Origin: Bacillus sp. EB01 | GTDB lineage: Bacteria; Bacillota; Bacilli; Bacillales; Cytobacillaceae | Assembly (NCBI RefSeq): GCF_000613125.1 | Contig: NZ_HG964497.1 | Span: 2,014,405-2,075,119, forward strand | Direction of reading: 5' to 3' | DNA: 60,715 nt | Shown: positions 14,540 to 17,698 of the stretch, one piece after another | Numbering within the stretch: the stretch's first letter is position 1 | How the letters are laid out: each line of letters starts with the position of its first letter | Notes under the pieces: model-generated | The model's input: only the letters and a program-made list of their open reading frames with translations | The model's database searches: none | What the model was told of the DNA's origin: nothing | Made by a program: the position numbers and the translations under genes

Positions 14540-14901
<362 letters not shown>

Positions 14902-14909
<8 letters not shown>

Positions 14910-15178
14910 CGAAATCGTCTCCCTTCTCTAGATCGGACAGGCGTTTGTTTAAATCTTGTAAAGCGAAGCGCAGCTTCCCAATTTAGTGGCGCAGCCTGTG
15001 ACCTTGTTACTGTATTAAACTTCTGGAGCTATGCGGTCCACTAGTTGGAGATGCCTGATAACTTTCTTCTCGGGCAATCATTCTTTCGCGTAAAACAATA
15101 GCCACCAGAACAATTTTCTCATCAACCAACTTTATGATTATAACATATTGGCTACTGCCCCGTCCTTTTTTAACATGC
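14902..15178 (-). pseudogene. decayed KOW-domain RNA-binding protein gene
   Basis: In B. subtilis a KOW-domain, L14e-like RNA-binding protein lies between map and infA. Here the minus strand gives its pieces in different frames: GRGSSQYVIIIKLVDEKIVLVA, then a frame shift to a TRKNDCPRRK-like part, then HLQLVDRIAPEV, a stop, and finally an undisturbed C-terminus [19 protein letters not shown] ending in a TAA that overlaps the infA start. I count at least three frame changes and no start codon with a ribosome-binding site. Gene function is lost unless the sequence is wrong. The clean 3' end may be kept because it covers the infA ribosome-binding site. Confidence 0.8.
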
Positions 15179-15182
15179 CAGA

Positions 15183-15690
15183 GGATCTGAAGGTCAATCC
15201 AGTTTCCTTATAGCAATAAGAGAATTTTCATAGCCTTCATCGACTAATTGCAATCCTCTGTTCAAAGTGAGCAGTTTTGCCAGTTATCGTTACAACTCTC
15301 TTTAGCCACTGTTTGGACATATCGGCTTCCCGCATTCACCATCGGCTCAATTGCCAGCACTATTCCAGGCTTCTATCCACGTAAATTAATAGGTGGGCTT
15401 ACTTAAAGACCGTGTGAGTCTTCATGTAAGTCTTGCCCTACACCGTATCCGGCATACTCGCGCACAACGGAAAAACTGTTTTCTTCTACATACACCTGAA
15501 TCGCATGCGAGATAGTTGAAAGACGCTCGCCTGGCAATGCCTTCTTCAGCCCTTTAAATCACTCATTCCTTCACACACAATAGCCGAGTTGTTATCTCGA
15601 CACTTCTACGAACAGGATAAGTACAGGCCGAGATAATAATAATAACCAATGTGGACTATCCAGGAGCGTACGCTGCATATTACAGATAAT
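15183..15690 (-). pseudogene. map: decayed methionine aminopeptidase gene (map)
   Basis: The minus strand right after adk holds fragments of type I methionine aminopeptidase: a start remnant (ATTATCTGTAA, ATG lost), [24 protein letters not shown] continuing to [29 protein letters not shown] and [10 protein letters not shown]. They are in different frames with stops between. About 95 codons between the start remnant and TYPV, which would carry metal ligands Asp97 and Asp108 (E. coli numbering), are missing. The metal-binding His of GHGVG is Tyr. The 508 bases compare with about 750 for an intact gene. Deletion, frame shifts and substitutions together argue for real decay rather than sequencing error. 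The enzyme is essential, so another map copy must exist elsewhere. Confidence 0.9.
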
Positions 15691-15692
15691 CC

Positions 15693-16355
<663 letters not shown>

Positions 16356-16402: not shown

Positions 16403-17698
16403 TTACTTGATAAAGCCCTTATAATGGCGTTTTACTAACTGAGCTTCCAATTGTTTCATTGTTTCAAGCGCAACACCAACAACAATCAATAGGCTGGTAC
16501 CACCAATCTGTGCAGATTGAGGCAGGTTGGCAACTTGAATGAAGATGATTGGAAGGATTGCAATAACAGCAAGGAAAATTGCTCCGACAAATGTTAGTCG
16601 ATACAACACGCGGGTAAAGTATTCTTGCGTTGGTTTACCAGGACGGATTCCGGGAATGTAACCACTCTGCTTTTGCAGATTTTCGGCAGCTTGTTCCGGA
16701 TTCACCTGAATGAACGCATAGAAATACGTAAACGCGATAATCAATGCCGCATACATAATCATCCCAACCGGATGGGTATAATCGAATACTCGCTGAATCC
16801 AGAGAGTAACATCATTTGTTGGAAAAAACGAAGCAATTGTCCTTGGAGTGATGATAAAGGACACAGCGAAGATTACTGGAATAACACCGGCAGCGTTAAC
16901 TTTTAGCGGCATGTGTGTCGATTGTCCGCCAACTGGTGTACGTCCTGCAGTCATCCGCTTTGCATATTGAATCGGAATTTTCCTGGTAGCTTGCTGAACA
17001 AAGATAACTCCAACAACGATTGCAACAACAGCCAAAAGTAAAAGGATAACAATCAGGATATTGATAAACAACTTATCCCCTACATTTTGAAATTGTTGAA
17101 TGTAAATTTGGTTCACTGTAGTAGGGATTCCCGCTGCAATGCCCGCAAAGATAATAATTGAAATACCGTTTCCTACGCCTTTTGAAGTGATTTGTTCGCC
17201 AAGCCACATCAAGAAGGCTGTGCCTGCTGTTAACACAGTTGCAATCAACAAGTACGTTGGAATGTCCGGATCAACAATCAATTGGCTTTGAGTCATATTG
17301 TTAAACCCGTATGACATACCTAATGCCTGGATAAATCCAAGCACAATAGTAAAGTAACGAGTAAATTGAGCTAACTTTCGCCTTCCTGCATCCCCTTGCT
17401 TTGACCACTCGGTAAATTTAGGGACAACATCCATCTGCAAGAGCTGAATGATGATGGAAGCAGTAATATAAGGCATGATCCCCATTGCTAGAATAGAGAA
17501 GTTTTGCAGCGCTCCTCCGCCGAACGTATTCAAGACTCCAAATACGCTGAACTGATCTTGAGCTGCTAGAATGTCTGCATTGACGTTCGGCACCGGAATA
17601 AAGGTCCCGATACGGAAAATCAATAGCATTAATAAAGTGAAAAGGATTTTATTCCTTATTTCAGCCACGCGCATAAAATTGGAGATTGTCCGGAACAT
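16403..17698 (-). CDS. secY: preprotein translocase subunit SecY
   Basis: A 431-residue channel protein with ten membrane segments. Visible signatures: TIFIPVPNVNA-like plug region (GTFIPVPNVNA), GMSYGF, GVGNGISIIIFAGI and QLVKRHYKGF at the C-terminus. It forms the Sec channel with SecE, which is encoded at 44332. The start overlaps the rplO stop by one base (TAATG), indicating coupling. Confidence 0.98.
   Translation of the reverse strand: MFRTISNFMRVAEIRNKILFTLLMLLIFRIGTFIPVPNVNADILAAQDQFSVFGVLNTFGGGALQNFSILAMGIMPYITASIIIQLLQMDVVPKFTEWSKQGDAGRRKLAQFTRYFTIVLGFIQALGMSYGFNNMTQSQLIVDPDIPTYLLIATVLTAGTAFLMWLGEQITSKGVGNGISIIIFAGIAAGIPTTVNQIYIQQFQNVGDKLFINILIVILLLLAVVAIVVGVIFVQQATRKIPIQYAKRMTAGRTPVGGQSTHMPLKVNAAGVIPVIFAVSFIITPRTIASFFPTNDVTLWIQRVFDYTHPVGMIMYAALIIAFTYFYAFIQVNPEQAAENLQKQSGYIPGIRPGKPTQEYFTRVLYRLTFVGAIFLAVIAILPIIFIQVANLPQSAQIGGTSLLIVVGVALETMKQLEAQLVKRHYKGFIK

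Follow-up and report, generated by a model that had tools for sequence, protein, structure and literature searches.

The map gene of the spc operon in Bacillus sp. EB01, which lies between adk and infA and would encode methionine aminopeptidase (MetAP), is very likely a true pseudogene that became dispensable given other type I MetAPs, an intact gene designated L003 being the most likely substitute and a second one, L004, the next. The decay of map is genuine and commonplace in its group. A stretch of about 107 nucleotides of the former coding sequence has been retained in several separate losses, and this conserved block is the part of the finding most worth following. The analyzed window is a stretch of 60,715 nucleotides from contig NZ_HG964497.1, and the features of the adk-infA region are as follows.

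15693..16343, minus strand: adk, intact, 216 aa (list of open reading frames and alignment)
15707..15708, minus strand: deletion junction, from the end of adk to map codon 80, lying inside adk and common to genome G007
15253..15707, minus strand: map pseudogene remnant, frameshifted and with stops; the low-coordinate end is approximate, from the alignment
15644..15707, minus strand: former map codons 81-102, unalignable to map (38 of 63 sites differ)
15419..15525, minus strand: conserved block of 107 nt (map codons ~140-176), kept after several separate losses; proposed cis element
14925..15252, minus strand: remnant of a small gene found just after map in some relatives, plus the infA leader; approximate bounds
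15137..15145, minus strand: TGTTATAAT, extended -10-like, found by eye and similar in relatives of the genus
14691..14909, minus strand: infA, intact, 72 aa (list of open reading frames)

Between adk and infA, the list of open reading frames holds no minus-strand frame of 60 aa or more. The Pfam M24 model matches the remnant at 15334-15555 (E 3.8e-8, 34.7 bits; cut-off 23) across one TAG and one TAA, and because this match lies above the cut-off the remnant is more than a chance resemblance. Both its position between adk and infA and its homology to the intact map genes of relatives mark it as the spc-operon copy, in which no enzyme-coding frame is left and metal ligands are lost. Aligned against seven more members of the genus, the region cleanly lacks 255 columns, from the last codons of adk through map codon 80. 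The deletion recoded the last four residues of adk (SLL-AGLR vs SLL-GGNR in G005), whose product still has 216 residues, the stop codon coming from new sequence past the deletion. In map codons 81-102, the differences are spread about equally over the three codon positions, and codons 177-193 form a second scrambled patch (30 of 50 sites differ). As to the origin of the unalignable sequence, a 25-base piece searched for in the window matched only itself. The metal ligands D94 and D105 are gone, and H168 is replaced by Y in the window only; we assume here that the ligand identities are those of E. coli MetAP.

Thus, the sequence-only reading, which had proposed a map gene decayed between adk and infA, is borne out by the two intact flanks, the M24 remnant with its stops and the same decay in G007, and several of its details need correction. 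It had placed Map fragments in several frames; three-frame translation does recover the fragments, in two frames only, the two longer ones in one frame and HFEQ in another. The start codon is not altered, as it had been described, but deleted within the 255-column gap. The reported loss of about 95 codons with two aspartate ligands is a fair account of the 255-column deletion plus the unalignable codons 81-102. The change of GHG to GYG holds for the window and fails for G007, which retains GHG; judging from this comparison, it is a late change that followed the decay of map. Finally, the proposed span of 15183-15690 falls short at the 5' side, where the junction 15707/15708 lies inside adk.

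We give practically no credence to an assembly or read error as the cause of the broken frame. Full-length frameshifted map genes do exist in locus L112 and in genome G237, and nothing that would support an error was found for the window. Sequencing error is excluded because G007, a separate genome in one contig, has the same deletion and scrambled patches, along with the stops. The genes of L112 (Fictibacillus sp. BK138) and G237 (locus L226) are of full length with two stops in the aligned frame; each could be either an error in the sequence or a gene that died very recently.

The comparison of relatives also dates the loss. Six other members of the genus (G001-G006) have an intact map of 248 codons; G005 and Bacillus sp. 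FJAT-27225 share an identical spc-operon Map. The pseudogene would have arisen after the divergence from G005 and before the window's species and G007 separated. The remnants of the latter two differ at 15 of 453 sites (3.3%). Their divergence at fourfold degenerate sites is 3.6% in the ribosomal cluster and 10.3% around L003, so that the remnant as a whole appears unconstrained against the local figure and slow against that of the L003 region.

Several observations concern the neighborhood of map. The small gene following it, which we take to be of the KOW type, has open frames of 111 aa in G001 and 130 aa in G006, is shortened in G004, and has no open frame of 50 aa in the window, G007 or G005; a Pfam search with the open frames of two relatives gave no match above the cut-off. 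The extended -10-like TGTTATAAT is a possible candidate for the infA promoter; a promoter scan of the window region did not list it, and in scans of this region and of locus L043 promoter-like sites were not above those of shuffled sequences in either. Further upstream, codons 1-17 of secY (~17648-17698, minus strand) have the strongest synonymous constraint among six genes across 44 genomes (5.8 SD of windows), well above that of map, perhaps another overlapping signal.

Loss of map from this conserved operon had been regarded as unusual; instead, it is recurrent. Among 80 named adk loci, 30 have no intact map: 50 carry it in place, 14 retain a remnant and 16 have nothing detectable by tblastn. 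With 32 additional loci, chosen as 14 losers and 18 keepers, the counts for all 112 are 68 intact, 22 remnant (the frameshifted full-length gene of L112 among them) and 22 with nothing detectable. On a FastTree phylogeny of seven neighboring proteins, these loci require 15 changes of state, at least 13 of them forced by well-supported (starred) branches, L112 being left outside this count. Uniqueness of the loss was rejected on the evidence of the named loci and the order sample described below. Three intact map genes (L064, L067 and L076) are nested in the tree among map-less Neobacillus, possibly reflecting many parallel losses or regain by recombination. Both map and adk are missing from the assemblies G008, G028 and G041, which were not counted as losers. 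In G115 (locus L254), map is absent, yet 1,082 bases separate adk and infA, and the adk frame is open for 463 aa.

The sequence-only reading had also required an intact MetAP elsewhere, and the single-contig genome of the window's strain has two.

C1:1818216-1818968: L003, intact type I MetAP, 251 aa
C1:3950141-3950881: L004, intact type I MetAP, 247 aa

Both score well above the TIGR00500 cut-off of 171 bits (307 bits for L003, 272 bits for L004), and in both the five ligand positions (D-D-H-E-E) are aligned; by the model score and the ligands, L003 and L004 are predicted to be functional type I MetAPs. They are 33% identical to each other, and L003 and L004 are 53% and 39% identical, respectively, to the spc-operon Map. 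L004 fits the published description of B. subtilis YflG as an enzyme about 36% identical to Map that has one additional residue close to GHG and most resembles the S. aureus enzyme (PMC1266368): its identity to Map is 39%, it has the extra residue near GHG, and its best PDB match is 1qxw. L003 does not fit this description, given its 53% identity to the spc-operon Map and its best PDB match, 3tb5; its closest relatives in the structural database are 3tb5 and 4km3. As for 1qxw, we take its organism to be S. aureus, as expected for the YflG type. Although PRK12897 of NCBIfam is the best-scoring model for L003, we did not assign the gene to it because its score lies under the equivalog cut-off (381.7 vs 488 bits). 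L003 is present in all eight members of the genus and L004 in the window's genome (G000), G005 and G007 only; therefore, both spares predate the loss of map. Peribacillus simplex (G351) and five other genomes (G178, G204, G229, G255 and G321) have two L003-type genes each.

The association between the spares and the loss was assessed in a sample of 299 genomes of the order. With the spc-type Map called present at E <= 1e-100, it was found in 242 genomes and not found in 57. Eight of the 57 were dropped, namely G237 with its frameshifted map, G254, which is 62% complete, and six genomes of one genus (G062, G141, G169, G196, G246 and G315) that had at first been called losers because their divergent map, intact, in place and 56-63% identical, missed the E-value threshold; these six joined the keepers. 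Besides the window's genome there are thus 48 losers with adk and infA on one contig and no intact map between them, nine with remnants and 39 with nothing detectable. An L003-type gene is present in 48 of the 49 losers vs 132 of the 248 keepers (Fisher 9e-11, ancestry ignored), the keeper count being 132 at a threshold of 1e-107 and 146 at 1e-92; the lone exception is G063, where the gene is a fragment at a contig end. L004 without L003 occurs in none of the 49 losers vs 69-72 keepers. In genus-level units, before the correction of the sample, L003 is found in 27 of 28 loser vs 55 of 92 keeper units (p 1e-4), and L004 in 12 of 28 vs 37 of 92 (p 0.83). Counted per genome with ancestry ignored, losers carry L004, too, somewhat more often than keepers do (32 of 49 vs 105 of 248, p 0.004). 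Among the 27 of the 30 named losers that were tested, 21 have a clear L003-type gene, one is borderline (the frameshifted Fictibacillus) and five, all from the Lysinibacillus/Solibacillus clade (L101, L104, L109, L113 and L114), have none. Each of these five has one match to L004, 60-63% identical, which is the only MetAP match found; therefore, either type can be the sole survivor. A codon-usage comparison of 14 losers and 18 keepers gave no sign of raised L003 expression in losers (p 0.39 and 0.20).

These distributions bear on which enzyme took over. It is conceivable, though in our judgment unlikely, that the yflG-type L004 did so in the window's lineage and that the association of L003 with loss reflects shared ancestry of gene-rich lineages. 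Consistent with this, L004 is confined within the genus to the sub-clade of the loss, it is itself enriched in losers, and it stands alone in the five losers of the Lysinibacillus/Solibacillus clade; against it, no loser of the order sample has L004 without L003 while 69-72 keepers do, L003 is present throughout the genus, and yflG, present as a single chromosomal copy in B. subtilis, does not take the place of map there, according to the report on the two genes (PMC1266368). The yflG-type substitute that had been suggested from sequence alone is doubtful in the order sample, where it is L003 that goes with loss, and stands in the Lysinibacillus/Solibacillus clade, where the L004 type is alone; as a general substitute, within the order sample, it was rejected by the 0 of 49 losers with L004 alone. 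Under the preferred reading, with L003 as the main substitute, the ancestor already carried other type I MetAPs that would have made map dispensable, and L003 would supply the MetAP activity in map-less cells, as its association with the loss suggests.

The decayed map sequences are not retained evenly. In 43 losers (L112 excluded), map codons 137-176 form a plateau, aligned in 91-94% of losers at an identity of 0.65-0.74. When gaps are counted as mismatches, the scores are 0.61-0.69 in the five plateau windows, 0.41 and 0.46 in the two that flank them, and at most 0.33 in the rest; both sequence blocks are present in 26 of the 43. Among 64 distinct intact map sequences (of 82 found), nearest-neighbor identity is 0.80-0.83 at codons 137-160, 0.85-0.89 at codons 161-176 and 0.69-0.88 elsewhere. 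The plateau of the losers is thus absent from intact genes, although their conservation is highest at codons 169-176 (0.89); codons 137-160 are ordinary. In seven of 12 loss clades, including that of the window, the 40 best-kept codons begin between codons 134 and 144; of the other five, four have their best window elsewhere and the Lysinibacillus clade is intermediate (start at 127). The best window lies at the same place in 13 of 64 intact pairs, and against this null the seven-clade result has p 1.4e-5 counting those seven alone and 0.004 over all 12. The 12 loss clades and the seven groups used for divergence are our own grouping on the tree, in which some joining forks are weakly supported; L219/L220 and L227-L230 are absent from the tree behind the loss clades.

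Within six clades, divergence of the block is 0.09-0.21 vs 0.40-0.48 at fourfold degenerate sites and is the lower of the two in all 120 pairs, which are not independent; the rest of the adk-infA gap diverges by 0.28-0.53 where alignable. The single pair of the window and G007 points in the opposite direction, without constraint (0.028 in the block vs 0.011 at fourfold sites).

Searching 60 genomes, 50 of them true losers, with a sequence-only model (R1) recovered the block beside a decayed map in 11 of the 50; the other matches at examined loci were to intact divergent maps in place, the frameshifted gene of G237 or an L003-type paralogue. A second scan of 36 loci found the block in 0 of 33 loser loci of the order sample, with a weak match in G032 and another match in G141, whose map is intact. 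The losers that keep the block belong to families f1, f30 and f42 and to named Neobacillus, Peribacillus, Heyndrickxia and others. In losers of f2, f7, f12, f14, f15, f16, f22, f23, f25 and f36 it was not seen; these lineages may have lost it or may have been without it from the start. In G260 and G325, the block (57.6 bits) is present without any protein-level remnant at E 1e-3. The exact block pattern occurs in 55 of the 299 genomes, in each at a single location; no extra genomic copies were seen, as repeated matches of this pattern overlap and share one end.

At even odds, in our estimate, this stretch of map was kept by selection after loss of the protein in some lineages, the simplest candidate being a cis-acting RNA or DNA element. 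The block would act in cis on the downstream infA-rpmJ-rpsM-rpsK-rpoA-rplQ genes, a regulatory role that is conjectural. The fuller form of this proposal, to which we attach an equal chance of being right or wrong, is that an element of about 107 nt inside map of a large Bacillaceae clade controls the infA-alpha part of the cluster and can outlive the enzyme, selection keeping it in several lineages that lost map, and that in Neobacillus its arms pair once they are freed from coding for protein. The arms CGACTCTCG and CGAGAGTTG, in Neobacillus only, form a 9-bp pairing that is unbroken in 11 sequences; the Neobacillus fold has one double-sided change among 18 predicted pairs, which lies outside the 9-bp stem. 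No common RNA fold of the block was found across losers, 18 of 20 sequences have ordinary folding z-scores, from -1.6 to 1.5 (the other two fall below -2), and the block thus does not have the conserved fold with covariation expected of a structured RNA. None of 4227 Rfam families matches at the block, the sole Rfam match being an L13 leader in L161, away from it. In 64 intact genes, codons 173-176 are strongly biased (D as GAC in 44 of 48, L as TTA in 50 of 64, H as CAT in 64 of 64 and E as GAG in 54 of 64) compared with a background in the same genes of 34, 28, 74 and 35%, respectively. These codons differ in Priestia, Pseudalkalibacillus and the loci of B. pumilus and B. paralicheniformis, those of B. 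velezensis and relatives being nearer. The synonymous-constraint peak of intact map, at codon 163, is modest (2.9 SD of windows; 2.0-5.8 in other genes).

A somewhat less probable but serious alternative is that the retained 40 codons are merely the slowest-evolving part of the protein, which young pseudogenes still resemble, and that there is no cis element. The GHG motif does fall in this segment, no window of intact genes is more conserved than codons 169-176, and the 13 of 64 intact pairs with their best window there are in line with it. Moreover, the losses in Peribacillus and the window's clade may be recent, the window/G007 pair shows no constraint, and most losers outside a few families carry no trace of the block. 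However, codons 57-80, 89-112 and 201-232, with an identity of 0.80-0.87 in intact genes, are retained in only 33-66% of losers vs 91-94% for the plateau. Neobacillus (gaps of 277-309 nt) and the V3B, G012 and G036 losers (213-228 nt) keep the block with the other map sequence largely gone, and G260 and G325 keep it with no recognizable protein remnant. Finally, in Neobacillus, g66 and V3B the block diverges by 0.09-0.21 vs 0.45-0.48 at fourfold sites.

Taken together, relatives of B. subtilis that carry another MetAP have repeatedly lost map, a gene described as essential in that species, and being essential is in this case a property of the gene set. The repeated loss amounts to a natural deletion experiment, which brings to light a candidate control element hidden within coding sequence of the spc operon. 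In the literature searched, we recognized no paper on map loss in these genera or on an element inside map, and methionine aminopeptidase together with Neobacillus yielded none.

Among characterized enzymes, the best structural relatives of L003 are the MetAPs 3tb5 and 4km3, which we take to be the Enterococcus and Streptococcus enzymes; presumably each is the sole MetAP of its organism, which differs from the genome of the window, where L003 is one of two. The arrangement resembles that of B. subtilis, as reported for its map and yflG genes, in having a spc-located map and a second type I MetAP gene elsewhere; there, map cannot be dispensed with, while yflG is only weakly expressed and is not needed (PMC1266368), whereas here map is dead and the partner of its loss in the order sample is a third type, that of L003. 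Regarding control, the spc operon of E. coli is described as autoregulated by S8 (uS8) at rplE, and the same source calls its regulation unknown in B. subtilis and in other species (PMC10931766). The gene concerned is a different one and the block has shown no S8-like structure, but in both cases the control site, putative in ours, would lie inside the operon and away from its start. Deletions of duplicated genes from the spc operon have been described for rpmJ in Gammaproteobacteria and rpsN in Leuconostocaceae (PMC8046335). Those genes encode ribosomal proteins, unlike map, and the likeness is that a gene leaves a conserved operon where a second copy exists outside it.
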